A stretch of 64,000 bases of DNA. It comes from Marichromatium purpuratum 984 (lineage in GTDB: Bacteria; Pseudomonadota; Gammaproteobacteria; Chromatiales; Chromatiaceae). Positions within the stretch are counted from its first letter, which is position 1, and every line of letters begins with the position of its first letter. A program made the position numbers and the translations under genes. The notes beneath the pieces were generated by a model that saw only the letters and a list, made by a program, of their open reading frames with translations, had not been told where the DNA came from and ran no database searches. The stretch lies in contig NZ_CP007031.1 in assembly GCF_000224005.2 (NCBI RefSeq), positions 2,943,001 to 3,007,000 on the forward strand. Reading direction: 5' to 3'. Of the stretch, positions 21,820-37,435 are shown piece by piece.

Positions 21820-21841
21820 GTAAAAGGACACCCACTTACCG

Positions 21842-21870
21842 TTGACGCTCCCAAGGCGCTCTCCTACGCT
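21842..21870 (+). promoter_or_regulatory. Promoter carried inside every RAYT left end (shown for copy C)
   Basis: TTGACG, a 17-bp spacer and TACGCT follow the hairpin by 2 bp. The -35 box matches the consensus at five of six positions; the -10 box is weaker. The same arrangement recurs in copies B, D, E, F and G, so each transposition of the left end also moves a promoter reading outward to the right. Confidence 0.65.
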
Positions 21871-21899
21871 TCTCTCAACACCTCCAGCGGAGATGCCCC

Positions 21900-23096
21900 A
21901 TGACTCGTCCCCGCGCCTCGCTCGTCTCCTTGTCCGATACGCCCTGGTATCACGTCGTCACGCGCTGCGTGCGCCGGGCGTATCTGTGTGGCTTCGATCG
22001 GTTGACCGGGCGGAGTTTCGAGCATCGACGCGGGTGGGTGGAGTTGCGGCTACGGCAGCTCGCCGGGGTGTTCGCGATCGATGTGGCGGCCTATGCGGTG
22101 ATGAGCAATCACGTGCATCTGGTAGTGCGGGTGGATGCCGATCGGGCGGCGGGGTGGTCGGATGATGAGGTGCTGCGGCGCTGGCGGTGTCTGTTCCGCG
22201 GGCCTGTGGTGGTGGAGCGGTTCTTGTCGCCGGCGACGCGGGCGGGGATGACCGAGGCGGAGCTGGATGGGGTCGCGGGGTTGGTCGCGATCTATCGGGC
22301 GCGGCTGGCGGATCTCTCGTGGTTCATGCGGGTGTTGAACGAGTCGATCGCGCGGGCGGCGAACCGGGAGGACGGGGTGCGGGGACGGTTCTGGGAGGGA
22401 CGCTTCCGTTCGCAGGCGATCCTCGACGAGACGGCGCTGTTGGCGGTGATGGCCTATGTCGATCTCAACCCGATTCGGGCGGGGATTGCGGAGGCGCCGG
22501 AGGAGAGTGCGCATACCGGGATTGCGGCACGGATCGCCGCCTTGCGTGCGGGCGATGAGGGTACGGCGATCGGGCAGCACCTCGACGTGGCGTACCGCCC
22601 GAATGTCGGGCCGGAGACATCACCAGAGATCTCTCCCGATTCGCAACGACCGATTCCCTACCAGCGCAAGACACCAGCCAGCCACGCACCCACACCGCCC
22701 GAACCCGAGAACGACGCCTCACCGGACGCCCGCAGCACCAACCTCTGGGAAGCGGCCCTCAACCGCCTCCCCCCTGCCCCACTACTACCCTTCGGCAACC
22801 CCGCCGAGGTCCCGGCGGCGATCCCCTTCACCTTCGGCGACTATCTGACCCTGGTCGACTCGCTCGGTCGCGCCCTGCATCCACGCAAGCGCGGGGCGAT
22901 CCCGGCGGAGCTGCCCGACATCCTCACCCGGCTCGGAATCGCGCCGGAGCGCTTCGTCGAGCACGCGGGCTTCCTGCTCAAGGGGTTCGGTGCCGCGATC
23001 GGTGCGCCAGAGCGACTGACCGCACTCGCCGCACAGCGCGAGTGTCGTTATCTGCGGGGATTGCGGCGCGCCCGACTGTTGTTCTCGGCTGCTTGA
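21900..23096 (+). CDS. REP-associated tyrosine transposase (RAYT), copy C, full length
   Basis: A 398-residue HUH-superfamily transposase. The HUH motif is SNHVHLVV (about residue 62-69). The following helical part contains NESIARAANREDGVRGRFWEGRFRSQAI and YVDLNPIRAGI, whose Tyr is the candidate nucleophile. A variable Pro-rich linker (about 225-295) leads to a C-terminal module with DYLTLVDSLGRALHPRKRGAIPAELPDIL and ERFVEHAGFLLKGFGAAIGAPERL. RAYTs nick and join single-stranded DNA at short hairpins. AGCGGAG precedes ATG. The linker is nearly identical to copy F but different from copy G. Confidence 0.9.
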   Translation: MTRPRASLVSLSDTPWYHVVTRCVRRAYLCGFDRLTGRSFEHRRGWVELRLRQLAGVFAIDVAAYAVMSNHVHLVVRVDADRAAGWSDDEVLRRWRCLFRGPVVVERFLSPATRAGMTEAELDGVAGLVAIYRARLADLSWFMRVLNESIARAANREDGVRGRFWEGRFRSQAILDETALLAVMAYVDLNPIRAGIAEAPEESAHTGIAARIAALRAGDEGTAIGQHLDVAYRPNVGPETSPEISPDSQRPIPYQRKTPASHAPTPPEPENDASPDARSTNLWEAALNRLPPAPLLPFGNPAEVPAAIPFTFGDYLTLVDSLGRALHPRKRGAIPAELPDILTRLGIAPERFVEHAGFLLKGFGAAIGAPERLTALAAQRECRYLRGLRRARLLFSAA

Positions 23097-23184
23097 AGGA
23101 AGGTCACCCCAGCGTCTCAGGGAAGACTCGTAGCGGACCGTCTTCCGCTCAAGGCCGGTATCATTCGATGGGGAACGCGCCCGT

Positions 23185-23418
23185 TCAGCCCGCGTGACCG
23201 AGGTAGCCCTCGATCATGGGCGTCCATTCCGGGCTCTGGATCATGCGCAGAATCCACCGATTGACGGGCTCGCGTAGCTCGGTCTCCGGCGGAAGCGCGA
23301 TGCCGTAATCCTGCCGCAGCAGAATGCCCGGCAGCACACGGAGTTCACCGGCATGCTCCGAGCTGACCAGGTGTCTCAGGATAGGCAGGTCATAGACGAC
23401 GGCATCGGCCCGCCCGGC
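23185..23418 (-). pseudogene. 3' fragment of the glutamate-receptor-like channel gene
   Basis: The minus strand encodes the last about 78 residues of the protein at 27750-28847, nearly identical (AVVYDLPILRHLVSSEHAGELRVLPGILLRQ at its start). The upstream part is absent: the frame passes into AAGTAAA-type stutter sequence and a hairpin. It is a passenger of RAYT copy C and has no start or membrane part. Confidence 0.88.
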
Positions 23419-23464
23419 CAAGTAAACACAAGTAAAAAACACAAGTAAAAAGACACCCATTTAT
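23419..23464 (+). repeat. Stuttered RAYT hairpin junction
   Basis: Three successive starts of the same sequence occur: CAAGTAAACA, CAAGTAAAAAACA, then CAAGTAAAAAGACACCCATTTAT, the last being a complete though degenerate hairpin (23445-23464). Only the third continues. It joins a broken host gene on the left to an IS701-like fragment on the right. Confidence 0.7.
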
Positions 23465-23612
23465 CAGAGCTGCTGACGACGGCGCCGCGCAAGAACGGTT
23501 GGCAGTTGGCCGAGATATTAGGCGAGCGGCGTCCGGACGGGGTGCAGCAACTGCTCAACATGGCACGCTGGAACGCCGAGGCAGCGAGCTAGGTGCTGAA
23601 CGCCATAACGTC
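23465..23612 (+). pseudogene. Degenerate fragment of the IS701-like transposase
   Basis: The plus strand reads LLTTAPRKNGWQLAEILGERRPDGVQQLL and ARWNAEAAS before an in-frame stop. This matches an internal N-terminal part of the transposase at 28999-30159 with several substitutions. Both ends are missing. From 23613 to 23833 I see no gene, apart from possible control DNA of the next module. Confidence 0.82.
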
Positions 23613-24136: not shown

Positions 24137-24876
24137 GCACGTCCCTGGTTGTCACTTTGGATTGGCTGGGTGAGCGTCTGACGGTCGGCCAGCTCGATAT
24201 CTTCACCAGCCAGCGGGGAACCGAGCGCTATCAGTTCACCTATGATCGAGACTGGTGCCGGACGGGCTTCGCCATCGATCCCGACTTGGACCTCTTGCCA
24301 GGGATGCCCTTTCAGGCGAGCAAGCTGTGGGGCGCCTTCCAGGACATCGCCCCCGACCGCTGGGGACGGCTCGTCCAGGACCGGGTTTTCGACCACTACC
24401 TGAGCGAAAGCGATTACCTCCTGGGGGTCTCCGATCACATGCGGATGGGTGCCTTGCGATTGAGTCGCGCGGAGGCTCCCGGAGAATTCCTAGCCCTAAC
24501 CACGAACGTTCCGAAGCTGGTCCATCTACGGGCACTGGAAGCGGCGATCGCACGCCTGGAACAAGGCGTACCGACCGGTGCCGACCTCGCGCTCCTCGCC
24601 CAGCCGGGCTCATCCCTCGGCGGCGCCCATCCCAAGGCGGCGATCGAGGACAAGGGCAAGCTCTATATCGCCAAATTTCAATCCCGGCTCGATACCGAGC
24701 GGGTAGGGGCCTGGGAGGCGACTATGCTGGATCTCGCGGGAGCAGCGGGCCTGCGCGTGGCGAAGCATCGATTGCTCAACGCGAGCGGTGAGCGACCTGT
24801 GCTGTTGGTGGAACGGTTTGATCGACAACAAGGAGGAAGGGTTCCGTTCGCCTCGGCCATGACCCTGGCTGCATAG
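24133..24876 (+). pseudogene. hipA: Truncated HipA-like toxin kinase
   Basis: 247 residues corresponding to the N-terminal and early kinase part of HipA: VGQLDIFTSQRGTERYQFTYDRDW, then LPGMPFQASKLWGAFQDIAPDRWGR, the Gly-rich loop SSLGGAHPKAAI, and LLVERFDRQQGGRVPFASAMTL. The protein ends at a TAG created at the RAYT hairpin (24875-24894). The catalytic loop and DFG-like metal-binding region, which follow in intact HipA (about 410-440 residues), are lost, so kinase activity is unlikely. Start is GTG 24133. Confidence 0.85.
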
Positions 24877-25221
24877 AAAGGGACACCCACTTACCGTTGA
24901 CGCTCTCGAGGCCCTCTCCTACGCTTCCTCCAACACCCCCAGCGGAGATGCCCCATGACTCGTCCCCGCGCCGTGCTCGTCTCCTTGTCCGATACGCCTT
25001 GGTATCACGTCGTCACGCGGTGCGTGCGCCGGGCGTATCTCTGCGGCTTCGATCGGCTGACGGGGCGTAGTTTCGAGCATCGGCGCGGGTGGGTGGAGTT
25101 GCGGTTGCGTCAGCTCGCGGGGATGTTCGCGATCGATGTCGCGGCCTATGCGGTGATGAGCAATCACGTGCATCTGGTGGTGCGGGTCGATGCCAATCGG
25201 GCGGCGGGGTGGTCGGAAGAA
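24875..25221 (+). mobile_element. RAYT element copy D (truncated after HUH motif)
   Basis: Hairpin variant 24875-24894 directly at the hipA break, promoter, and a transposase start at 24955. The frame runs through [22 protein letters not shown] to about 25217 and then enters the next hairpin. The HUH motif is present but the catalytic-Tyr helix is missing. Confidence 0.82.
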
Positions 25222-25410
25222 ATAAAGGGACACCCACTTACCGTTGACGCCCCCAAGGCGCTCTCCTACGCTTCTCCCAACACCCCCAGCGGAGATGCCC
25301 CATGACTCGTCCCCGCGCCGCGCTCGTCTCCTTGTCCGATACGCCCTGGTATCACGTCGTCACGCGTTGCGTGCGCCGGGCGTATCTCTGCGGCTTCGAT
25401 CGGGACGGAA
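25222..25410 (+). mobile_element. RAYT element copy E (truncated after about 34 codons)
   Basis: Hairpin 25222-25241, promoter, and transposase start at 25301 ([20 protein letters not shown]). Similarity ends at GFDR near 25402 and a perfect hairpin begins at 25411. Non-coding in practice. Confidence 0.82.
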
Positions 25411-26410
25411 GTAAAGGGACACCCATTTACCGTTGACGCTCCCAAGGCGCTCTCCTACGCTTCATCCAACACCTCCAGCGGAGATGCCCCATGACCCGTC
25501 CCCGCGCCTCGCTCGTCTCCTTGTCCGATACGCCCTGGTATCACCTCGTCACGCGCTGCGTGCGACGCGCCTATCTCTGCGGCTTCGATCGGTTGACCGG
25601 GCGGAGTTTCGAGCATCGACGCGGCTGGGTGGAGTTGCGGTTGCGTCAGCTCGCCGGGGTGTTCGCGATCGATGTGGCGGCCTATGCAGTGATGAGCAAT
25701 CACGTGCATCTGGTGGTGCGGGTGGATGCCGATCGGGCGGCGGGGTGGTCGGATGATGAGGTGCTGCGGCGCTGGCGGTGTCTGTTCCGCGGGCCTGTGG
25801 TGGTGGAGCGGTTCTTGTCGCCGGCGACGCGGGCGGGGATGACCGAGGCGGAGCTGGATGGGGTCGCGGGGTTGGTCGCGATCTATCGGGCGCGGCTGGC
25901 GGATCTCTCGTGGTTCATGCGGGTGTTGAACGAGTCGATCGCGCGGGCGGCGAACCGGGAGGACGGGGTGCGGGGACGGTTCTGGGAGGGGCGCTTTCGC
26001 TCGCAGGCGATCCTCGACGAGACGGCGCTGTTGGCGGTGATGGCCTATGTCGATCTCAACCCGATCCGCGCCGGGATCGCGGAGACGCCGGAGGAGAGTG
26101 CGCATACCGGGATTGCGGCGCGGATCGCCGCCTTGCGTGCGGGCGATGAGGGTACGGCGATCGGGCAGCACCTCGACGTGGCGTACCGCCCGAATGTCGG
26201 GCCGGAGACATCACCAGAGATCTCTCCCGATTCGCAACGACCGATTCCCCACCAGCGCAAGACACCAGCCAGCCACGCACCCACACCACCCGAACCCGAG
26301 AACGACGCCTCACCGAACGTCCGCAGCACCAACCTCTGGGAAGCGGCCCTCAACCGCCTCCCCCCTGCCCCACTACTCCCCTTCGGCAACCCCGCCGAGG
26401 TCCCGGCGGC
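25411..26410 (+). mobile_element. RAYT element copy F (3'-truncated)
   Basis: It begins with the perfect hairpin GTAAAGGGACACCCATTTAC (25411-25430) and its promoter. The transposase gene 25491-26417 keeps both catalytic regions but stops at NPAEVPAAG, losing the last about 90 residues. The break coincides with a 19-bp duplicated junction (26408-26445). Confidence 0.85.
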
Positions 26411-26417
26411 GGGGTAA
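25491..26417 (+). pseudogene. RAYT transposase copy F, missing the C-terminal module
   Basis: 308 residues nearly identical to copy C up to residue 307, including [21 protein letters not shown] and YVDLNPIRAGI. The stop is formed by the GGGTAA of the following hairpin. The HUH domain could still fold; whether the lost C-terminal KRG module is needed is unknown. Copy F shares the copy C linker, so these two are sister copies. Confidence 0.82.
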
Positions 26418-26445
26418 AAGGACACCGGCGGGGTAAAAGGACACC
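26408..26445 (+). repeat. 19-bp exact tandem duplication at a RAYT junction
   Basis: GGCGGGGTAAAAGGACACC occurs at 26408-26426 and again at 26427-26445. It consists of the last bases of the truncated copy F plus the first part of the hairpin. Only the second unit continues as a whole hairpin (26433-26452). Confidence 0.85.
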
Positions 26446-27661
26446 CACTTACCGTTGACGCTCCCAAGGCGCTCTCCTACGCTTCTCTCAACACCTCCAG
26501 CGGAGATGCCCCATGACTCGTCCCCGCGCCTCGCTCGTCTCCTTGTCCGATACGCCCTGGTATCACGTCGTCACGCGTTGCGTACGCCGGGCGTATCTCT
26601 GTGGCTTCGATCGACTGACCGGACGGAGTTTCGAGCATCGACGCGGCTGGGTGGAGCTGCGGCTACGGCAGCTCGCCGGGGTGTTCGCGATCGATGTGGC
26701 GGCCTATGCGGTGATGAGCAATCACGTGCATCTGGTGGTGCGGGTGGATGCCGATCGGGCGGCGGGGTGGTCGGATGCCGAGGTGTTGCGGCGCTGGCGG
26801 TGTCTGTTCCGGGGACCGGTGGTGGTGGAGCGGTTTCTGTCGCCTGCAACGCGGGCAGAGATGACTGAGACGGAGCTGGATGGGGTCGCGGGCTTGGTCG
26901 AGACTTACCGGGCGCGGCTGGCGGATCTGTCGTGGTTCATGCGGGTGTTGAACGAGTCGATCGCGCGGGCGGCGAATCGGGAGGATGGGGTGCGGGGGCG
27001 GTTCTGGGAGGGACGCTTTCGCTCGCAGGCGATCCTCGATGAGACGGCGCTGTTGGCGGTGATGGCCTATGTCGATCTCAACCCGATTCGGGCGGGGATC
27101 GCGGAGACGCCGGAGGGGAGTGCGCATACCGGGATCGCGGCGCGGATCGCCGACTTGCGCGCGAACGAAGGTGACACGGCAGGACGATCGTTCGCAGTCA
27201 TAGAGCGATCGACACCTGAGGTTGGCGAGGCCCCGCCAACGGCGTGCACCGCCGCAGCGCCCGAGACCAACCACGCCGACAGCTCACCAGATGCCCGCAG
27301 CACTCACCTCTGGGAGACTGTCCTCGATCGCCTGCCCCCTGCCCCACTACTGCCCTTCGGCAACCCCGCCGAGGTCCCTGCAGCAATCCCCTTCACCTTC
27401 GGCGACTATCTGACCCTCGTCGACTCGCTCGGCCGCGCCCTGCATCCGCGCAAGCGCGGGGCGATCCCGGCGGAGCTGCCCGAGATTCTCACCCGGCTCG
27501 GCATCGCGCCGGAGCGCTTCGTCGAGCACGCCGGTTTCCTGCTCAAGGGGTTCGGTGCCGCGATCGGTGCGCCAGAGCGACTGACCGCACTCGCCGCACA
27601 GCGCGAGTGTCGTTATCTGCGGGGATTGCGGCGCGCCCGGCTGTTGTTCTCGGCCGCTTGA
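26433..27661 (+). mobile_element. RAYT element copy G, full length
   Basis: Hairpin 26433-26452, promoter, and a complete transposase gene (26513-27661). Beyond its stop lies the convergent glutamate-receptor-like gene, which is intact here, so this is the best candidate for the resident locus whose flank was copied with copy C. No matching right-end hairpin is seen between 27662 and 27749. Confidence 0.82.
26513..27661 (+). CDS. REP-associated tyrosine transposase (RAYT), copy G, full length
   Basis: 382 residues, identical in plan to copy C: HUH motif SNHVHLVV, helix with GRFWEGRFRSQAI, candidate Tyr in YVDLNPIRAGI, linker, and C-terminal KRGAIPAELPEIL module. The linker (about residues 220-280) differs in length and sequence from copies C and F, whereas the rest is nearly identical, which suggests recombination or faster linker drift. 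It carries its own promoter and AGCGGAG ribosome site. With copy C it is the only complete gene of the family here and could act on all the truncated copies. Confidence 0.9.
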   Translation: MTRPRASLVSLSDTPWYHVVTRCVRRAYLCGFDRLTGRSFEHRRGWVELRLRQLAGVFAIDVAAYAVMSNHVHLVVRVDADRAAGWSDAEVLRRWRCLFRGPVVVERFLSPATRAEMTETELDGVAGLVETYRARLADLSWFMRVLNESIARAANREDGVRGRFWEGRFRSQAILDETALLAVMAYVDLNPIRAGIAETPEGSAHTGIAARIADLRANEGDTAGRSFAVIERSTPEVGEAPPTACTAAAPETNHADSSPDARSTHLWETVLDRLPPAPLLPFGNPAEVPAAIPFTFGDYLTLVDSLGRALHPRKRGAIPAELPEILTRLGIAPERFVEHAGFLLKGFGAAIGAPERLTALAAQRECRYLRGLRRARLLFSAA

Positions 27662-27749
27662 AGGAAGGTCACCCCAGCGTCTCAGGGAAGACTCGCAGCG
27701 GACCGTCTTCCGCTCAAGGCCGGTATCATTCGATGGGGAACGCGCCCGT

Positions 27750-28847
27750 TCAGCCCGCGTGACCGAGGTAGCCCTCGATCATGGGTGTCCATTCCGGGCT
27801 CTGGATCATGCGCAGAATCCACCGGTTGACGGTCTCGCGTAGCTCGGTCTCCGGCGGAAGCGCGATGCCGTAATCCTGCCGCAGCAGAATGCCCGGCAGC
27901 ACACGGAGTTCACCGGCATGCTCCGAGCTGACCAGGTGTCTCAGGATGGGCAGGTCATAGACGACGGCATCCGCCTGCCCGGCGGCGAGCGCGTCCAGTG
28001 CCTCGGAGACATCCGCAACCGATCTGTAGCGCACCAGCTTCTGGTCGAGGAAACGGGCGCTGGTGCTGTCCTCGGCCGTCACCACCCGCTTGCCGTAGAG
28101 GTCGCTGAGCCCGCTCACGTTCTGCCCCAGCTCGCCCACGGTCAGCGAGCTTGCAATGGCTGCTGTGAAGCTGGAGACGACCACCACACTGGTGAACATC
28201 CAGACCAGTCCGATCAGCCGCCCGGCGAAGGTCACGGGGGCCTTGTCGCCATAGCCGACGGTGGTCATGGTGACGGCGGACCACCAGATGCCCGAGCCGA
28301 TCCCCTTGGCCGGTTTGCCGGAGAACTGTTCGTTGCGGCGACGCTCGGCGAGCCAGACCAGGGCGCCGAGCAAGGTGAGGACACCCAGCAAGGCCGCCAA
28401 GGACTGCAAAAAGGCACCCGAAGCGACGCGCCTGAGCGCGGAGAACCAGGTCAGCTCGGGGCGCTGCGGGACCGCCACCCCGAGCCCGGAGGTGAAGAAG
28501 GGATGCGTGAAGTCGACCCGCTGCTCGCGCTCGGCGGTGATGGTCAGGGCGGCGGCGGCCGCATCGACCTCTCCAGCGGCAACCGCATCCAACATCTCGT
28601 CGAGTCCCATTTCCTTGAACTGGACCCGGAACCCTTCCTCGTCGGCGATACGCCGGATCAGCTCGATGGTGATGCCATCCCAGCTCTTCTCCCGCTTGAT
28701 GGCGAAGGGCGGCGCATCGCGCGTGGCGATGACGAGTTCGCGCTCGCCCGACGGCTCGTCGGCCCTGCCCTCTGCTGGCGTCATGAGCGACAACAACACG
28801 CTCAAGGCAATCAAGATCAGCGGTGATTGACGCCCTACGCTCTTCAT
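27750..28847 (-). CDS. GluR0-like glutamate-receptor channel (periplasmic binding lobes plus K+-type pore)
   Basis: A 365-residue membrane protein. Residues 1-29 form a signal peptide. Lobe 1 of a family-3 binding domain (about 36-130) is followed by TM1 (about 147-167), a pore loop with TMTTVGYGDKAP (selectivity filter TVGYGD at 196-201) and TM2 (about 208-233). TM2 ends with SFTAAIASSLTVG, resembling the SYTANLAAFLT motif of ionotropic glutamate receptors. Lobe 2 follows. This is the architecture of bacterial GluR0, a ligand-gated K+ channel. ATG 28847 has AGGAG 8 bp upstream. An IS begins only about 80 bp upstream and could affect its promoter. Confidence 0.88.
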   Translation of the reverse strand: MKSVGRQSPLILIALSVLLSLMTPAEGRADEPSGERELVIATRDAPPFAIKREKSWDGITIELIRRIADEEGFRVQFKEMGLDEMLDAVAAGEVDAAAAALTITAEREQRVDFTHPFFTSGLGVAVPQRPELTWFSALRRVASGAFLQSLAALLGVLTLLGALVWLAERRRNEQFSGKPAKGIGSGIWWSAVTMTTVGYGDKAPVTFAGRLIGLVWMFTSVVVVSSFTAAIASSLTVGELGQNVSGLSDLYGKRVVTAEDSTSARFLDQKLVRYRSVADVSEALDALAAGQADAVVYDLPILRHLVSSEHAGELRVLPGILLRQDYGIALPPETELRETVNRWILRMIQSPEWTPMIEGYLGHAG

Positions 28848-28929
28848 GGCGGATACTCCTCGCACGCCTGTCTCGTCCGCCGCGAACCGGCCATGCGCCA
28901 GCGGTGCAGCTATCAAACAGCAGCCATAC

Positions 28930-30335
28930 TACTACTACTACAGCCGCATATTTTTTGTGTTGTGATATGTGGACTCAACGGCTTGGTTTTCAAACAACAT
29001 GAAGTACAGCGAGGTCTCTGGCTGGGAGACGGAACTGGACAGGATCCATCAGCGCCTGGCGGCGTGTTTTCGTCGTCCTGAGCCGCGCGCCCGAGCGCGG
29101 GGTTATCTGCAAGGGCTGCTGACGACAGTGCCACGCAAGAACGGTTGGCAGCTGGCCGAAACCTTGGGCGAACGGCGCCCGGACGGGGTGCAGCGCCTGC
29201 TCAACACGGCACGCTGGGACGCCGAGGCGGCGCGCGAGGTGCTGCGTGCCTATGTCGTCGAGGCGCTGGGCGACGCCGAGGCGGTGCTGATCGTCGATGA
29301 GACCGGTTTCTTGAAGAAGGGCACGCACTCGGTGGGGGTGCAGCGCCAGTACAGCGGCACGGCGGGCCGGGTCGAGAACAGTCAGATCGGGGTGTTTCTG
29401 TGTTACGCCAGCCGGCACGGCGCGGCCTTCATCGATCGGGCGCTGTACCTGCCCAAATGTTGGGCGAATGACCCCGCACGCTGCGCCGAGGCCGGCGTCC
29501 CGGAGCAGGCACGCCGCTTCCAGACCAAACCAGCCCTGGCGCGTACGATGCTCGAGCGCGCACTCGATGCCGGGGTACCTTGTGGCTGGGTGACGGGCGA
29601 TGCCGTCTACGGTAAGGATCGCAAGCTGCGCCTGTGGCTCGAGGCGCGCCAACAGCCCTTCGTGCTCGCCGTGGCGGGCAATGAACCGGTGTGGTTCGAT
29701 GGCCCGCAGACCCATCGTGTCGCGGCACTGGCCAAGGCGCTGCCAGAGACGGCCTGGCAGCGCCACGCCGTCGGCGCCGGGAGCAAGGGCGCGCGCACCT
29801 TCGAGTGGGCCTGGGTGCCGCTGTGGCGCCTGCAGCTCAGCGCCGAGGAGCGCGCCTGGGGGCATTGGCTGGTGGTGCGGCGCAACTGCAACCGCCCCGA
29901 GGAGCGGGCCTACTACATCGCCTTCGCGCCCCGCGCCGAGGCCACACTCGAGCGCCTGGCCAAGGTCGCCGGGCAGCGCTGGGCGATCGAGGTCGGCTTC
30001 GAGCTGGCCAAGCAGCAGTGTGGGCTCGACGAGTATGAGGTGCGCCGCTGGCCGGCTTGGCATCGCCATATCACCCTTGCGCTGCTGGCCCATGCCTGCC
30101 TCGTCGTGCTGCAACGACGGGCGAAAAAGGGGGCGCTGTCGCCGGGCGGATCGCACTGACCGCCCCTGAGATCCGGCACCTGCTCGAGGCGCTGTTGTGG
30201 CGCGAACGCGCCCCGCCTGATGCTGTCATCGCCTGGTCGGATTGGCGACGACGACATCAGGCGCGGGCCAGGGTCTGTCATTATCGAGCGCGAGGGGCTG
30301 GGCCGCCATAATGATGTGCGGCTGTAGTAGTAACA
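28930..30335 (+). mobile_element. IS701-like insertion sequence
   Basis: The ends form inverted repeats: the left end near 28930-28950 reads TACTACTACAGCCGCATA and the right end near 30315-30335 reads TGTGCGGCTGTAGTAGTAACA, which is its reverse complement apart from a few bases. The transposase gene lies between them with about 175 bp of non-coding DNA after it. A partial relative lies at 23465-23612. Exact ends and target duplication were not determined. Confidence 0.8.
28999..30159 (+). CDS. IS701-type DDE transposase
   Basis: A 386-residue transposase with the family's signature: AVLIVDETGFLKKGTHSVGVQRQYSGTAGR holds the first catalytic Asp, GVPCGWVTGDAVYGKD the second, and RWAIEVGFELAKQQCGLDEYEVR the Glu. 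ATG 28999 was chosen because it starts the conserved region; an in-frame GTG at 28969 is possible. Reading frame and inverted repeats are intact, so the element may be active. It inserted upstream of the glutamate-receptor-like gene, pointing away from it. Confidence 0.9.
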   Translation: MKYSEVSGWETELDRIHQRLAACFRRPEPRARARGYLQGLLTTVPRKNGWQLAETLGERRPDGVQRLLNTARWDAEAAREVLRAYVVEALGDAEAVLIVDETGFLKKGTHSVGVQRQYSGTAGRVENSQIGVFLCYASRHGAAFIDRALYLPKCWANDPARCAEAGVPEQARRFQTKPALARTMLERALDAGVPCGWVTGDAVYGKDRKLRLWLEARQQPFVLAVAGNEPVWFDGPQTHRVAALAKALPETAWQRHAVGAGSKGARTFEWAWVPLWRLQLSAEERAWGHWLVVRRNCNRPEERAYYIAFAPRAEATLERLAKVAGQRWAIEVGFELAKQQCGLDEYEVRRWPAWHRHITLALLAHACLVVLQRRAKKGALSPGGSH

Positions 30336-30373
30336 GGAGCGCTGCAGCGGTTGCCTGATACCCGAATGAACGA

Positions 30374-30556
30374 ATGAAAGGACACGCACTGGTGCACTGA
30401 CAGTTGGGGATCCGCCTGATGCCCTCCCCTCTCACCCATCTCGGCATCGTGCCCGAGCGCTTCGTCGAGCACGCGGATCTCCTGCTCAAGGGTTTCGGGT
30501 CGATGATCGACGCACCGGAACGGATAACCTCGATCGGCGGGAGTGTCACTATCTAG
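30374..30556 (+). pseudogene. Decayed RAYT 3' end with degenerate hairpin
   Basis: A hairpin-like ATGAAAGGACACGCACTGG (30374-30392) is followed by DNA coding LTHLGIVPERFVEHADLLLKGFG and IDAPERI before a stop. This is the C-terminal RAYT module with many substitutions and no upstream part. It is older than the copies at 21-27 kb. A matching remnant lies at 36090-36180, and both are followed by yqhD-tail DNA. Confidence 0.75.
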
Positions 30557-30629
30557 CGAGAGGTGTGACTCTAGAACGTCTGAGAGAGACGTCGCTGCCG
30601 GGCGAGAACGGCGCCGGACCTCAACGCAG

Positions 30630-30705
30630 AGCGACCGCCCGCACCTCGGCCGAACCGATGTCCCACACTCGCCGAGCGACAGCAGATGGCGGTCATTCAG
30701 CACCC
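30630..30705 (-). pseudogene. Diverged copy of the yqhD 3' end
   Basis: The sequence CCGCACCTCGGCCGAACCGA and its flanks match the DNA at 36305-36370, which encodes the last residues of YqhD (GDIGSAEVRAILEG). The order RAYT tail then yqhD tail is the same at both places, so this is a copied segment, not a coincidence of composition. It ends shortly before the dksA-like gene stop at 30758. Confidence 0.7.
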
Positions 30706-30757
30706 AGTCCATCCGCCAAGCCCGCCAGCATCGAGCCCGAGGTGGTTGGGCCGCCGC

Positions 30758-31207
30758 TCAGAGATCCGGCCGGGTCTGTCGCTCTCTCAGCTCGCGCCGC
30801 TCCTGCGCTTCCACACAAAGCGTTGCGACCGGACGGGCATCGAGCCGCGCCAAGCCAATGGGCTCGCCGGTTTCTTCGCACCACCCATAGCTGCCGTCAT
30901 CGATGCGGGCAATTGCCGCAGCGATCTTGCCCAAGAGCTTGCGATAGCGATCACGGGTGCGCAGCTCCAAGGCCTGGGCAGCCTCGCGGCTGGCGCGGTC
31001 CAATTCATCGCCGACCTCATGATGACTGTCGTGCCCCAACTCTGCGAGAGTCGCCTCGGTCTCGGCGAGTAACGCTGATTGCCAGTCCAGAAGCTTTCGC
31101 CTGAAATAGGCCAATTGACGCGGTCCCATATAGCCGTCGTCCATAGGTGGTCCGCCGTCGGCGACATCAGAGGGCGGCGCATGCCGCATGTGCTCAGTGT
31201 CTTGCAT
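30758..31207 (-). CDS. dksA2: DksA2-type RNA polymerase-binding regulator (two-cysteine form)
   Basis: A 149-residue DksA/TraR-family protein. A coiled coil (about 30-105) carries DELDRAS with the Asp pair and Ala expected at its tip, which enters the RNA polymerase secondary channel with ppGpp. The C-terminal globular part GWCEETGEPIGLARLDARPVATLCVEAQ has only two of the four Zn-binding Cys, as in DksA2 proteins that work without zinc. It lies in a set with a COG0523 GTPase and DUF1826 gene behind a probable Zur site, matching a zinc-sparing role. Start at 31207 is the longest; shorter ATGs exist at residues 7 and 22. Confidence 0.88.
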   Translation of the reverse strand: MQDTEHMRHAPPSDVADGGPPMDDGYMGPRQLAYFRRKLLDWQSALLAETEATLAELGHDSHHEVGDELDRASREAAQALELRTRDRYRKLLGKIAAAIARIDDGSYGWCEETGEPIGLARLDARPVATLCVEAQERRELRERQTRPDL

Positions 31208-31299
31208 CGCATCGTCACCGCTTCAGTGGATTGAAAGCCGAGACCGCCGCAACCGGCGAGAGTACAGCCATTGGCAGCGCCACACGACAAACCTCCAGG

Positions 31300-31536
31300 T
31301 CATGCCTCGCGCTCGGCCCGGCGAAACCAGGCCAGTACTCGGTTCAGGTGTGCCTCACCATAGAGACGCGCGAAGCGTTGCGTCTCCTCGTTGCCCAGGT
31401 CGCTCAAGACGGCAATGCGCGCCTTGAGAAAAGCCGGGGTCAGCGCCAACGCACACTTGACCTCGATGCAATAACGCCAGCTGGCGTAGTCGCTGGGTAT
31501 CAGCTCTGCGGCGTAACGTTCGCTGTCATCGACCAT
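31300..31536 (-). CDS. Small protein of the Zur-type operon
   Basis: A 78-residue protein (MVDDSERYAAELIPSDYASW at the start, then CIEVKCALALTPAFLKARIAVL) with two Cys six positions apart. It follows the GTPase gene by 4 bp, with AGGA before the ATG; an in-frame upstream ATG at 31554 would overlap the GTPase gene. It is probably translated with the operon and may assist it, but no function is known to me. Confidence 0.6.
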   Translation of the reverse strand: MVDDSERYAAELIPSDYASWRYCIEVKCALALTPAFLKARIAVLSDLGNEETQRFARLYGEAHLNRVLAWFRRAEREA

Positions 31537-31540
31537 GGCA

Positions 31541-32767
31541 TCAGTCCTCGTCATGCTCGGCAAACCAGCGGGGAAATGGGTCTTCGAATGACTTCCAGAG
31601 AGCCGCCCCTCCAGCCATTTCCTCGTCGCTGAGGAGACAACGATCGAGGATTTCACGGGTTTGTTCAGGCTCGAGATTCTGGCCGATGAACACGATTTCT
31701 TGGCGGCGATCGCCGTACTCACCGTCGAACTCGGCCATAATCCTTGCGCGCTGCTCGGGGTCCGTCGGCCAATGCTCACGGGGTGCGGCGGCCCACCAGA
31801 TCCCGGCCGGCCCATGGCGCACGATGCCTCCGGCCTGCGACCACTCGCCAGCCGCGTCGGGGCGCGAGGCCAGCCAGAAGAAGCCCTTCGAGCGCAGCAC
31901 GTTACCAGGCCAATCGGTCTGCAGCGCAGCCGCGAACCGAGTGGGATGAAACGGACGGCGCGCGCGATAAACGAAGCTGCCGATGCCGTACTCCTCAGTT
32001 TCCGGTGTATGTTCACCACGCATCTCGGCGAGCCAGCCCGGCGATCGCGCGGCACGAGCGAAGTCGAACCGCCCGGTGCCGATCACCTGGTCAAGCGGAA
32101 CCTTGCCAAAGCTGGCGTCGAGGATACGCGCATGCCGATTGAGCTGGCGCAAGGCATGTCGGAGTCGTTCACGCTCGGCAGCCGTGATGAGGTCAATCTT
32201 GTTGAGGAGGATGACATCGGCGAACTCGACCTGGTCGATCAACAGATCCGAGACGGTACGCCTGTCGTCCTCGCCGAGCGACTCACCGCGAGCTTGGAGG
32301 CTTTCGGCATGCTCGAGATCGACATCGAAGTTCACCGCGTCGACCACCGTGACCATGGTGTCCAGGCGGGCGATGTCGGACAGGCTGGTGTCCTCTTGGT
32401 CCCGGAAGGTGAAGGTCTCGGCCACCGGCAGCGGCTCGGAAATGCCGGTGGACTCGATCACCAGATAATCGAAACGCCCTTCCTTCGCCAACCGGCTGAC
32501 CTCGACCAGCAGATCCTCGCGCAGCGTGCAGCAGATGCAGCCATTGCTCATTTCGACCAGTTTCTCCTCGGCGCGATTGAGCTGGACCTCCCTGTTGACC
32601 AGGTCGGCGTCGACGTTGACCTCGGACAGATCGTTAACGATGACCGCAACGCGTTGCCCCTCCCGGTTGTTGAGAATGTGGTTGAGCAGTGTGGTCTTGC
32701 CGGCACCGAGAAAACCGGACAACACCGTGACCGGCAGTGTCTGTTCGACGGTGGGTTGCGAGTGCAT
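31541..32767 (-). CDS. zigA: COG0523-family GTPase (ZigA/YciC-like zinc metallochaperone)
   Basis: A 408-residue P-loop GTPase: Walker [10 protein letters not shown] (residues 18-26), the metal-binding CxCC motif CICC (77-80), NKID as the G4 base, and a C-terminal CobW_C domain ending [17 protein letters not shown]. ZigA/YciC-type members are induced in zinc starvation and are thought to deliver zinc to client enzymes. AGGAG lies 8 bp before ATG 32767. It follows DUF1826 on the same strand and precedes a small gene and dksA2, a common zinc-limitation operon. Confidence 0.92.
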
Positions 32768-32903
32768 GCGGGCTCTCCTGTGTGCGTACATCGAACGGTT
32801 TGAGACGCGGTCTCACGCACGCCAAGGCGGTCAGTGAAACGGATCACCCATCGGCAAGAAGGCGGCTCGCCGATCTTGGCGCGGTGCTGAGCGCCTCCAT
32901 GGC

Positions 32904-33551
32904 TCAGCAATCCAGGCAGAACAGAACACGGGTCTGCCCCGAGCCGGCAGTCGGCGGAGAGCGATGCACCAGCCCCCGACCAGCGTTGCCGGGATAGGCA
33001 TCGCCCTTCAGGATGCCCACCCAGAAGGGCAGGAACCGACACGGCTCGCCGATTCGGACAATGCGCGCATTTGGCGCACCGCTGGCCTGGGCGTCGCGAT
33101 CGACCTGCTCGTCGGTCAACCACTCGGTGCCCGGTCCGCGATACGTGCACAACAGACGTAGATAAGTGCGATCGACATGGAAACGCGGACAACCATCAGC
33201 GTCGGTCGTCTCCAGTCGCACGCTCACCTCGCGCCCCGCGCAAACGGCGAAGAACAGATCCGCCAGCCGTCGCAGGTCGGCGAGCCAGGCACTGAAGGCG
33301 CTCGGATTCAGCCCCTGTGCACTCAGAAGCGCACCGATATCCTCGTCGAAGGTCGGCGGCGACGTCCGGCAACGGATATCCGGCAGATCAGTCGCCCGCA
33401 GACACGCGACCTCACGCTCGACGGTCTCGATCGGGCGGCGCCGCCACAGACTCAGATTGAGTTCAGGCGCGGTGACATAGCGTAGATCGCAAGGTTGCTC
33501 ACTGATGAGGTGCCGAGGAGTCTCGGGGGTAGCCAAAGGAGTGCTTGGCAT
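32904..33551 (-). CDS. DUF1826 family protein
   Basis: A 215-residue soluble protein with RFHVDRTYLRLLCTYRGPGTEWL near the middle and LPFWVGILKGDAYPGNAGRGLVHRSPP, a motif with His and Asp typical of DUF1826. The domain has an oxygenase-like look, and members are often encoded beside COG0523 GTPases in Zur-controlled sets. ATG 33551 was chosen; TTG 33566 is the next possible start. A Zur-like site lies 24-45 bp upstream. Its exact role is unknown. Confidence 0.75.
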   Translation of the reverse strand: MPSTPLATPETPRHLISEQPCDLRYVTAPELNLSLWRRRPIETVEREVACLRATDLPDIRCRTSPPTFDEDIGALLSAQGLNPSAFSAWLADLRRLADLFFAVCAGREVSVRLETTDADGCPRFHVDRTYLRLLCTYRGPGTEWLTDEQVDRDAQASGAPNARIVRIGEPCRFLPFWVGILKGDAYPGNAGRGLVHRSPPTAGSGQTRVLFCLDC

Positions 33552-33574
33552 CAGGCCCGCTCGCAACGAGGAAA

Positions 33575-33742: not shown

Positions 33743-33804
33743 TTAAAGGACACCCATTTACCTCCAAATTAAGGGACACCCATTTACCAGGGACACCCAT
33801 TTAC
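33743..33804 (+). repeat. Cluster of three RAYT-type hairpins
   Basis: Motifs at 33743-33761, 33768-33787 and 33789-33804 are repeated head to tail, each GGACACCCATTTACC. The left junction is stuttered (CGAAATTAA twice) and the right side continues with a partial CATTTACC (33810-33817). No RAYT gene follows. Instead a truncated plasmid gene begins. Confidence 0.82.
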
Positions 33805-34028
33805 CTCGCATTTACCTCAACGTGAACCTGGCCTCGGTACATGTGGCCGTTGTGCTCTGTCGGTTTCGAGATGTAGCCGCCCATCATGTCCTTCGGCACT
33901 TCGGCCGCTCGCGGCCCATACAACTCGGCCGTGCTTTCCCGGAACTTGTAGACCAGCTCAAGCGCGCCGGGGTAATCGCGGACGAAAGCCCACGTCACTC
34001 CCTGCGCTTCGGCTTTCGTCAAGGGCAT
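33801..34028 (-). pseudogene. Truncated plasmid-type gene (position of TraC in an IncP-like set)
   Basis: 75 residues: MPLTKAEAQGVTWAFVRDYPG, then LVYKFRESTAELYGPRAAEVP. The last few residues and the stop come from hairpin DNA, so the gene is cut at about 33815. AAGGAGGG precedes the ATG at good spacing. It follows the next gene upstream by 3 bp. Order topoisomerase, small acidic protein, this gene recalls IncP traE-traD-traC, but identity as a primase start is only a guess. Confidence 0.5.
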
Positions 34029-34031
34029 GGT

Positions 34032-34415
34032 TTAGCCCTCCTTGGCCTTACGCTCGATAGCCGCCGGCACGGTTTCGCCGGGCCGAAGCCCATACAGCTC
34101 GCGGGCATTGGTCGTTGTCGGGACCGGCGGCAAGTCGCTGCTCGGGCCGTCATCATCCAGGAAAACCGGCTCTTCATCGCCGCCCAGCTCGGCCAGGTCG
34201 TCGGTGCTCTCGGCCGCGTCCTGCTCGCTCAAGGCGTCCTCCACGAAAGCGCCGGCGCGCTCGGCTTCATCGGGATCGAACTCGGCCTGGTAGCCAGGCG
34301 TGCCGGCGTCGGCCAGCTTCTCGCGCATAGCCTCGTTGGCGGCGGCGGTGTCGTCGATGGCGGGCAGCTCGGACAGCGCATCGTCGGCGGTACGGGTGTT
34401 GTCGTTCGCGGTCAT
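34032..34415 (-). CDS. Small acidic plasmid-type protein (TraD-like position)
   Basis: A 127-residue acidic protein ([19 protein letters not shown] at the start, Asp/Glu-rich body, C-terminal [21 protein letters not shown]). AGGAG precedes the ATG. It lies between the topoisomerase fragment and another truncated gene, all on the minus strand and tightly spaced. No domain is recognised. The size and position fit IncP TraD; sequence similarity was not tested. Confidence 0.5.
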
Positions 34416-34455
34416 GGTTGTTGCTCCTTTCGTAGTTGCTCGGTCGTGATCGTGG

Positions 34456-35413
34456 TTACTCGGCCGCAGCGGCGGGACCGTTGCGTCCCTTGCTGTAGTC
34501 GGGCCGGCCTTTCAGGTCGGGATAGGTCTGCTTGCATGTCGGGAAATTGCTGCACCCCCACCAGAATTGCCCCTTCTTCCGGCTCGGGCGGCGGGAAAGG
34601 CCGCTACCGCAGGCCATGCACTTATGCAGGGACGAAACCGGGGCGGCCTCCTTGCCGCCGGCGATGGTCACGGCACCGCTGTTGGCCTTCGCCACCTGGT
34701 CCCGGATGAAAGCCTCCTGCTTGGCAACGAATGCCAACAGCTCGGCGGTGCCCTGCTCGATGCCCTTCAACATGCGCTCGTACAGGGCGGTGAGGACGGG
34801 GCTTTTCACAACCTCGGGCAGCGCGTCGATCATGCTGCGCCCCAGGGTCTTGCTGACGATCTGCTTGCCCTTGACGGCCAGGAACTCGCGGCGTTTCAAC
34901 TCCGAAATGATGGAAGCGCGAGTAGCGGACGTGCCGATGCCGTCACCGTCGCGCAGCATATTCTTGTGCTCCGGGTCGCTGACGAACTTGTGGATGTTCT
35001 CCATCGCCCGAATCAACGTACCTTCCGTGAATCTGGCCGGCGGCTTTGTTTTCGCATCGCGGCGGGTGGCGTCGATGCAGGCAACTTCGTCACCCTGTTT
35101 CATCGCAGGCAGGTTCTGGCTACCGCCGTCCTCGCCCTGGTTCTTGTCGGCATCGTCGTCGCCCTGATCGTACACGTCACGCCAGCCGTTGCGCGTGACC
35201 ACCTTGCCGGTAGCCGCGAACGTCTCGCCGGCGATCTCCACGCCCACGGTCGTCTGCATGAATTCATGCAGCGGGTAGAACTGCGCCAAGTAGGCCCGAA
35301 CGATCAGCTCGTAGATGTTGCGTTCGCGCTCGTTGAGGCCATCCTTGTTGCCCTTCTGCATCGTCGGCACGATGCCGTGGTGAGCAGTGATCTTCTCGTC
35401 GTTCCAGGTCTTG
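34456..35413 (-). pseudogene. traE: Topoisomerase III (TraE/TopB-type) C-terminal fragment
   Basis: About 318 residues of a type IA topoisomerase: ITAHHGIVPT, then RNIYELIVRAYLAQFYPLHEF, the GDGIGTSATRASIISELKRREFL motif, and a C-terminal zinc finger CMACGSGLSRRPSRKKGQFWWGCSNFPTCK. The first half with the catalytic Tyr is missing, replaced at about 35415 by an IS5-type element. Conjugative plasmids of the IncP group carry such a gene (traE), so this block is probably plasmid-derived. Confidence 0.82.
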
Positions 35414-35414
35414 G

Positions 35415-35998
35415 ACTTAGAGGCTCTATCAAAAGCCCTATGCCCACTCCAAGGCATTCCAGCAAATGAGTGCGAGTCCCAGGAAGAGAAACGCCTCGTG
35501 AATATCGGCCCGGCGCTCGAAGCGCATCCGCAATCGGCGGAACTGATGCAGCCACGCCAGCGAGCGTTCGACGACCCAGCGGGTCGTTCCCAGCCCGCTG
35601 CCATGTGGGGTGTTGCGTCGCGCGAGCTGCGGTTGGATGTTGCGCGTGCGCAGTGCCGCGCAGTGGGCCTTGGAGTCATAAGCGCGATCGCCCTGCACGC
35701 GTTCGGGTCGATGGCGGGGGCGGCCACGCCGTCCGCTACGCACGGGTGTGATGCCATCGACCAGGGCGATGAGTTGCGTGACATCGTAGGCGTTGGCGCC
35801 GGTGAGCACGGCATGCAGCGGAATGCCCCGGGCGTCAGTGATCAGATGGTGCTTGCTTCCCGGGCGAGCGCGATCGGTCGGGTTGGGGCCGGTGCACTCA
35901 CCGCCGCCGACGGCGCGAATCGAGGCGCTGTCGACCAACGCTCGCGACCAGTCGATGCGATCGCTGGCCTCAAGTCGCTCGAGCAGCTTGTAAGAAAT
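35415..35998 (-). mobile_element. IS5-family (IS427-like) element, broken
   Basis: The left boundary near 35419 (GAGGCTCTATCAAAAGCCC) resembles the terminal repeat of IS427-group elements. The transposase reads on the minus strand: SRALVDSASIRAVGGGECTGPNPTDRARPGSKHHLITDARG, GDRAYDSKAHCAALR and TTRWVVERSLAWLHQFRRLRMRFERR. The 5' part is missing because the frame is cut at about 35996 by a hairpin. It cannot move on its own. Confidence 0.82.
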
Positions 35999-36002
35999 TG
36001 AA

Positions 36003-36062
36003 ATTAAGGGACACCCATTTACCTCGGAGTACCGAAAGGACCGAAAAGGGACACCCATTTAC
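36003..36062 (+). repeat. Pair of RAYT-type hairpins at an IS break
   Basis: Hairpins at 36003-36022 and 36043-36062, both with GGGACACCCATTTAC. Stutters include GAAATT twice before the first and CCGAAAGGA/CCGAAAAGG before the second. TTTACCT is repeated after it. They join the cut IS5 gene to RAYT-tail DNA. Confidence 0.82.
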
Positions 36063-36089
36063 CTTTACCTCGGCGACCTGACCGTCAGG

Positions 36090-36180
36090 GATCTGCAGGC
36101 TATCCCCGCCCGCGCTCCAGCATCGCCCCAGAGCGCCTCGTCGCGTGCGCCGATTTCCTGCTCAAGGGCTGCGGATGACG
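36090..36180 (+). pseudogene. Decayed RAYT C-terminal remnant
   Basis: The plus strand encodes SIAPERLVACADFLLKGCG before a stop, matching IAPERFVEHAGFLLKGFG of the intact copies. It is the older trace of a RAYT locus beside yqhD. From 36181 to 36280 there is only diverged DNA leading into the yqhD stop. Confidence 0.65.
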
Positions 36181-36280
36181 GCGGCGCAGCGAAAGAGCTG
36201 CGGTGCGCCCGGGTGTCGTCCTCGAGCGCCTGAGTGGAGAGCGCGCCGGCATCCCTGCCGAACGCGTACGCCGTCAAGGC

Positions 36281-37435
36281 TCAGCGCAGCGCGCCCTCGA
36301 GGATCGCCCGCACCTCGGCCGAACCGATGTCGCCGCGCTCACCGAGCGGCAGCAGGTGGTTGTCCTCCAGGCCGGCGACCAAGGTGTCGATCGCGGTGGC
36401 GTCGAGCCCGGCGTCGGCGAGCGAGGTCTCGACACCCATGCGCTGGAAGAACGCTCGGGTTTGCGCGATCGCCTGATCGATACGCGCCTCCGGCTCGCCC
36501 TGGTCGATCCCGAAGACCCGTTCTGCGTACTGCAGCAGCTTGTCGCGCTTGGCCGCGCGGCGGGCCTGCATCAGCGCAGGGAGCACGATGGTCAGGCTGC
36601 GCCCGTGGTCGATGCCGAAGTGCGCGGTCAGCTCGTGACCGATGCGGTGGGTGGCCCAGTCCTGCGGCACGCCACAGCCGATCAGGCCATTGAGCGCGAG
36701 CGAGGCGGCCCACATGATGTCGGCGCGCAGCGTCAGATCATTGGGGTCGTCGAGCGCCTTGGGGCCGGTCTCGATCAGGGTCAGCAGCAAGCCCTCAGCG
36801 AAGCGATCCTGCACCCGGGCATCGGCGGGATAGGTGAGATACTGCTCGATGACGTGGACGAAGGCGTCGACCACCCCGTTGGCGATCTGGCGCGGCGCCA
36901 GGCTGAGGGTGGTGGCGGGGTCGAGGATGGCAAAACGCGGGCGCACCAGCGGGCTGTAGAAGGCGAGCTTGCGCTCCGCTCGGGTCACCACCGCGTTGAT
37001 ATTGGTCTCCGAGCCGGTCGCCGGGAGGGTGAGCACGCAACCCAGCGGCAGCGCCTCACGCACCGGCGCCTGCTCGGCGAGGATCGCCCAGGGGTCGTCA
37101 CCCGCATAGCACGCGGCGGCGGCGACGAACTTGCTGCCATCGATCACCGAGCCGCCGCCAACGGCGAGCAGATAGTCGAAGCCACCGGCGCGCACCCGCT
37201 CGACCGCGCGCATCAGCGTGTCGTAGCGCGGGTTGGGCTCGATGCCACCGAAGGCTTCCCAGTCGAAGCCGGCGAGCGCCGCTGCCACCTGATCATAGAC
37301 CCCATTGGACTTGATCGAGCCACCGCCATAGAGCATCAGCACCCGCGCCCCAGTGGGGATGGCCTCGGCCAGCGCGGCGATCTGGCCGCTGCCGAAGTGG
37401 ATGCGGGTTGGGTTCTCGTAGACGAAGTTGTCCAT
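36281..37435 (-). CDS. yqhD: NADPH-dependent aldehyde reductase (iron-type alcohol dehydrogenase)
   Basis: A 384-residue enzyme similar to E. coli YqhD through its whole length: NPTRIHFGSGQI at the N-terminus, LMLYGGGSIKSNGV and LLAVGGGSVIDGSKF for NADPH binding, LPATGSE, and the metal ligands in NGVVDAFVHVIEQYLT and HRIGHELTAHFGIDHGRSL. It reduces reactive short-chain aldehydes such as methylglyoxal or those from lipid peroxidation. It is divergent from an AraC gene resembling its known regulator YqhC. Confidence 0.93.
   Translation of the reverse strand: MDNFVYENPTRIHFGSGQIAALAEAIPTGARVLMLYGGGSIKSNGVYDQVAAALAGFDWEAFGGIEPNPRYDTLMRAVERVRAGGFDYLLAVGGGSVIDGSKFVAAAACYAGDDPWAILAEQAPVREALPLGCVLTLPATGSETNINAVVTRAERKLAFYSPLVRPRFAILDPATTLSLAPRQIANGVVDAFVHVIEQYLTYPADARVQDRFAEGLLLTLIETGPKALDDPNDLTLRADIMWAASLALNGLIGCGVPQDWATHRIGHELTAHFGIDHGRSLTIVLPALMQARRAAKRDKLLQYAERVFGIDQGEPEARIDQAIAQTRAFFQRMGVETSLADAGLDATAIDTLVAGLEDNHLLPLGERGDIGSAEVRAILEGALR

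Follow-up and report, generated by a model that had tools for sequence, protein, structure and literature searches.

Two decayed RAYT/yqhD remnants in Marichromatium purpuratum as probable halves of an old tandem duplication anchored at a transposase left end

Introduction

RAYTs are HUH enzymes, and their cut leaves a 3'-OH and a 5'-phosphotyrosine. In related enzymes the 3'-OH can prime replication after the cut, and both uses might spread REPs, according to parts of PMC8266576. The RAYT or TnpA-REP systems, with their REPs, BIMEs and REPIN clusters, combine a Y1 HUH transposase with a short, partly palindromic motif repeated near the transposase genes, and parts of PMC3116915 and PMC3733652 report that such clusters occur in tandem together with flanking DNA. 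In TIRYT, the transposase genes lie between terminal inverted repeats with a GGGGWSAS motif (parts of PMC3733652 and PMC6006769). For the Helitron Helraiser, the left end is required and the right end is dispensable, with truncations and transduced flanking DNA (in part of PMC4778049).

The RAYT array described here lies in a window of 64,000 nucleotides, which is part of the 3.78 Mb single-contig genome of Marichromatium purpuratum. Like the RAYT/TnpA-REP systems, it has a putative Y1 HUH transposase, a short, partly palindromic motif near the transposase genes and tandem clustering, but it differs in that the motif is on the left only, the transposase gene is multi-copy, and the copies are whole-gene prefixes with variable right ends, some of which run into a neighbouring gene. 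A RAYT gene has REPs at both sides, usually as inverted pairs, whereas in 13 copies the motif was found on the left only. The core of the left-end motif (LE throughout), GGGACACC, resembles GGGGWSAS as given in the same parts of PMC3733652 and PMC6006769; unlike in TIRYT, these 13 copies are not enclosed by a pair of terminal inverted repeats, there being no inverted copy on the right within 700 bp downstream. Helitron read-through follows the same logic as the one proposed here, but in a eukaryotic system whose RepHel protein has two catalytic tyrosines and whose right end is a terminator (part of PMC4778049), whereas in Marichromatium a small bacterial Y1 enzyme would be at work and units are stacked at resident left ends. 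In pattern, these units have one fixed end, one variable end and flanking DNA taken along, as in one-ended mobilisation. One-ended transposition of IS91/ISCR elements likewise has one fixed and one variable end, but the transposase family differs from RAYT. Judged by title or abstract, none of the papers listed in literature searches gives an account of arrays of RAYT prefixes that are anchored on the left and carry gene tails.

Results

The RAYT array extends over 21.3-27.7 kb of the window, and its intact copy C (26434-27661, + strand), with the RAYT gene at 26513-27661, ends adjoining a channel gene with ligand-binding domains (27750-28916, - strand). The RAYT protein matched the REP_Tyr_transpos model NF047646 with an E value of 1.1e-10 and 41.6 bits, which is below the curated cut-off of 80 bits, and no Pfam family was matched. 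Read by eye, its translation contains HVH and a Y in YVDLNPIRAG, which may be the HUH motif and the catalytic tyrosine of a RAYT. Three LE-anchored partial units (24876, 25223 and 25412; together 24876-26411, + strand) each stop close to the next LE.

Two remnants, designated L and R for the left and right copies, lie beyond the channel gene. An IS701-family insertion with terminal inverted repeats (28920-30332, + strand; NF033540, 447 bits) stands between the channel gene and L. In L, a degenerate LE (30376-30393, + strand) is followed by a decayed RAYT C-terminal tail whose ORF lacks its 5' part (30397-30585, + strand) and by a copy of the yqhD 3' flank with the last yqhD codons (30586-30745, - strand; firm to 30700 and probable to 30745). 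This LE agrees with 11/16 consensus positions by eye, is weak when taken alone and was missed in the motif scans; its position relative to the RAYT tail is that of the intact LE of R and of both LE-like sequences of M. gracile described below. R (36044-36245, + strand) consists of an intact LE (36048-36063) and a decayed RAYT C-terminal tail, next to the source of the yqhD tail, an intact yqhD-like alcohol dehydrogenase gene (36281-37435, - strand) which scores 551 bits with PRK15138, below the cut-off of 645, and has 99% and 93% identity in two congeners. The copies are 5.7 kb apart with 5.3 kb between them, comprising a block of DksA-like, ZigA GTPase and DUF1826 genes (30758-33566, - strand), three consecutive LE motifs (33743-33805, + strand), an IncP-type traC-traD-traE fragment with a cut IS5 element (33806-35999, - strand; LE motifs at both sides) and, between this fragment and R, two LE motifs.

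Pairwise alignment shows L (30397-30700) to be a diverged, collinear copy of R (36078-36370), with a local score of 92 and a common order of RAYT C-terminal remnant, yqhD 3' flank and yqhD coding tail. The maximum was 39 among 500 dinucleotide shuffles of L and 58 among 264 other window stretches. Taken separately, the RAYT tail scored 60 (shuffle maximum 26), the yqhD flank and tail together 82 (maximum 34) and the yqhD coding tail 82 (maximum 31). The coding tail is 84% identical over 69 bp (30633-30700 / 36302-36370), and in a scan of 629 other 400-bp stretches on both strands, R and L themselves excluded, the next-best stretch scored 38 compared with 82 for L. A chance match as the source of the likeness is thus ruled out by the shuffles and window scans. 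Since the yqhD 3' flank is duplicated as well (30586-30632 / 36246-36292), L is one collinear segment. Around 30724-30745 the match picks up again, with 15/22 identical positions at an offset of +1, the best of 9 offsets tried, so that judging by these letters the copy may extend to 30745, adjoining the dksA-like gene. The RAYT part of L begins at about 30404, past the degenerate LE at about 30376, and its tail is 88% identical over 69 bp to the intact copy C (27487-27555). Compared with R, the yqhD tail of L has a frameshift and lacks 9 bp, and hence it is a dead fragment. A sequence-only reading of this DNA had placed at 30374-30705 a diverged repeat of the RAYT-tail/yqhD-tail order of R; the alignment bears this out, with limits close to those measured and a collinearity that goes beyond short codon likeness.

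The arrangement in relatives was compared next to that of M. purpuratum. M. gracile DSM 203 follows the window collinearly in two stretches, one running downwards from 44701 to 36085 and the other from 28931 to 27277, with ~ 272 bp in between. Its channel gene and yqhD are separated by 0.5 kb, in which two remnants, c1 and c2, lie in tandem, each with an LE-like start. In a four-copy alignment, the pairing of L with c1 and R with c2 was supported by 22, 25 and 27 sites at three gap settings, whereas only 3-4 sites joined L to R and 2-3 joined L to c2, and a 10-12 bp gap is common to L and c1. L is thus the ortholog of c1 and R that of c2. On this orthology the tandem pair predates the split from M. 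gracile, in keeping with the age given to the capture in the sequence-only reading, and, the pair being that old, L has at no time been at a distant locus. Furthermore, the left flank of L (30333-30364) joins the channel-gene upstream region in M. gracile, which represents the empty site of the IS701 element. Both this element and the DksA-like/ZigA/DUF1826 block are missing between or beside the remnants in M. gracile, and the DNA of 5.3 kb that parts L from R, with its zinc genes and cut IncP plasmid fragment, was inserted later. M. bheemlicum DSM 18632 likewise has a RAYT remnant joined to this yqhD flank; to its left, where the contig starts, there is another RAYT end that has decayed less.

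Some further likenesses were observed. ZigA had no match in the three congeners searched; another genome (G010) holds DNA similar to the DksA-like/ZigA/DUF1826 block with the order kept. In the M. purpuratum genome, positions 387244-387303 (G000:C1) match the region of the RAYT-tail end and yqhD flank at 82% with no RAYT seen nearby, and this stretch is also present in M. gracile.

The RAYT units have in common the left-end motif RGGACACCCAYTTAYC, variable stop points and an abutting next left end. A window scan for the motif RGGACACCCAYTTACC, with G put at its first place, gave 13 hits with at most 2 mismatches (0.01 expected); in the genome, the motif has 41 hits with at most 1 mismatch, compared with 1 for the reversed pattern. 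Exact RGGACACCCAYTTAYC was present in 3/116 family genomes, all Marichromatium, and was not found in the fourth Marichromatium congener, whose genome is 83% complete. The LE can form a weak hairpin. Units, defined as intervals between consecutive motifs at most 5 kb apart, were surveyed at 21 loci around LE motifs (one window stretch and 20 other regions), giving 61 units, 45 of which are at least 60 bp long. Twenty of these 45 are complete prefix copies, matching the beginning of an element that comes after them, with a cover of 0.88-0.99, and the other 25 have a cover of 0.33 or below. Several of the loci are orthologous among three congeners, and many of the units, being from such clusters, are not independent; the same holds for the repeat pairs below.

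Among within-locus repeat pairs of at least 60 bp, shorter ones being dropped, the left boundary was at an LE in both copies in 39/63, while 1% of positions are that near an LE. Right ends lay within 40 bp of an LE in 30/63 upstream copies compared with 10/63 downstream copies. The remaining 24 pairs, some of which are unrelated repeats, had no LE start in both copies, and the L/R pair is outside the 39 because the LE of L is too decayed. At several unit junctions, short duplications start 8-12 bp upstream of the LE. The unit at 25412 is 96.8% identical to 21821, compared with 92.8% to its downstream neighbour 26434.

Elsewhere in the genome, a second LE array (G000:C1:1888000-1900000) has another sequence after the motif (ATCAGCTTGAAGTCGCT) and again displays the prefix-copy pattern. 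At 23446-23598 of the window, an LE directly precedes a stretch from the interior of an IS701-type transposase gene, which is 86% identical over 133 bp to 29112-29244. The LE motifs of the genome form about nine clusters; with the terminus assumed near 1.9 Mb, and dnaA being at base 205, 8/9 face the same way with respect to the fork.

A common right end was not found, either by comparing the DNA 3' of the RAYT ORF among full copies or by scanning for an inverted LE. Past the ORF, shared sequence is limited to a few sets of orthologous or closely similar copies: copy C, the 23-kb copy and one M. bheemlicum copy form one set, loci L076 and L079 another, and loci L084 and L090 a third (L078 and L094 are one place sampled twice, as are L081 and L087). 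No inverted LE clearly above the reversed control was seen up to 700 bp downstream of the 13 RAYT copies; the best had 4-7 mismatches of 16 in 13/13 copies, compared with 4-6 for the reversed pattern, which was the sole control.

Gene tails and plasmid DNA were observed beside left ends. The unit at 21821-23418 (+ strand) extends 322 bp past its own ORF, and 234 bp of this (78 codons) is the tail of the channel gene located just after copy C. The unit matches 27277-27983 over 707 bp at 95%, the 78 codons being at 96%. The IncP-like fragment is 80.8% identical to pJS3066, an IncP plasmid. It starts at most 25 bp from the LE on its left, inside traC, which is cut, and its right edge is inside the IS5 transposase gene, at the next LE; the IS5 model match begins only at position 76 of 258.

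Discussion

In our preferred reading, which we hold to be rather likely, L and R are halves of an old tandem duplication beside yqhD which was made by left-end-anchored, one-ended mobilisation through a Y1 transposase and later separated. The data show that L is a collinear copy, that the two remnants lie in tandem in M. gracile and are orthologous to L and R, and that the IS701 element and the zinc/plasmid block later came to separate the pair. As to the cause, we infer a Y1 (HUH) cut at the left end, no fixed right end and joining beside a resident LE. A RAYT remnant would first have been fused to the yqhD 3' flank. The Y1 transposase would then cut at the left end, copying or displacement would proceed over a variable length with no fixed right end to stop it, and the unit, running from the left end of the remnant through the RAYT tail into yqhD, would be joined to its target directly upstream of the resident left end. 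The outcome would be a pile-up of left-anchored units with free right ends, some with tails of neighbour genes or foreign DNA. Later on, IS701 would have entered the left flank of L, and the zinc genes and plasmid fragment would have parted L from R. The units may have been copied in situ from their neighbour or may have been inserted after arriving from another place, and both fit; the second is favoured by the plasmid fragment lying between LEs and by the closer identity of 25412 to 21821 than to 26434. The preferred reading is backed by the tandem pair and orthology in M. gracile, the LE frequency, the left boundaries and prefix copies, the failure to find a right end, the channel-gene tail at 21821-23418 and the IncP fragment. 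Against it stand the 24 repeat pairs with no LE start in both copies, the missing coding tail of c1, the short junction duplications, which could equally stem from replication slippage, and the non-independence of many units.

A serious rival, which we nevertheless regard as rather unlikely, is a plain tandem duplication beside yqhD by replication slippage or unequal recombination, with no transposase, followed by decay and insertions. The adjacency of the L and R orthologs in M. gracile would be expected from it, the short junction duplications near LEs resemble slippage products, and REP elements are known to form tandem clusters that include flanking DNA (parts of PMC3116915 and PMC3733652). 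However, it predicts neither the LE as left boundary in 39/63 repeat pairs nor foreign DNA bounded by LEs.

The yqhD coding tail is retained in L only, since c1 of M. gracile stops near the yqhD stop codon; it was either lost from c1 in M. gracile or arose separately in M. purpuratum. It is quite unlikely, in our view, that this tail was outside the old tandem unit and was either brought in together with the zinc/plasmid block or created when that block inserted, for instance through recombination with a related strain. The missing tail of c1 and the position of the tail of L, adjoining the dksA-like gene, agree with such a late arrival, but the RAYT tail and yqhD flank of L that are orthologous to c1 run collinearly into it, and a loss of ~ 100 bp in M. 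gracile is equally simple. An independent second capture, in which the RAYT/yqhD junction would have been transposed to a locus of its own at 30.6 kb, in line with the sequence-only reading, is suggested by the distance between the copies when the M. purpuratum genome is taken alone, but it is very improbable and was rejected, given that in M. gracile the ortholog of L is directly beside that of R, between channel gene and yqhD, and that the left flank of L continues from the channel-gene upstream region once IS701 is discounted.

The same reading had likened L to the case of copy C. This part stands in so far as a parallel is found at 21821-23418, where a channel-gene tail is carried, while read-through by the transposase itself would be the presumed cause. 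The sequence-only interpretation is supported in part: it is plausible that the process was alike in both cases, and at L it is old, but L is a local tandem copy that was parted from R later on, with no second locus.

Under left-end-anchored, one-ended mobilisation, the left-anchored units of all lengths would be a record of copying stop points, and the model predicts LE cleavage, priming from the freed 3' end and a right end that is unnecessary. More broadly, and only tentatively, these RAYTs could represent a Y1 lineage without a right end, whose left-end motif was seen in no genus but Marichromatium in the 116 family genomes examined. This lineage would copy any length from its left-end hairpin, take along plasmid DNA and the tails of adjacent genes and stack its units beside resident LEs, as a prokaryotic counterpart of Helitron read-through capture. 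If this is true, small bacterial transposases would duplicate gene ends and acquire plasmid DNA in a Helitron-like manner.
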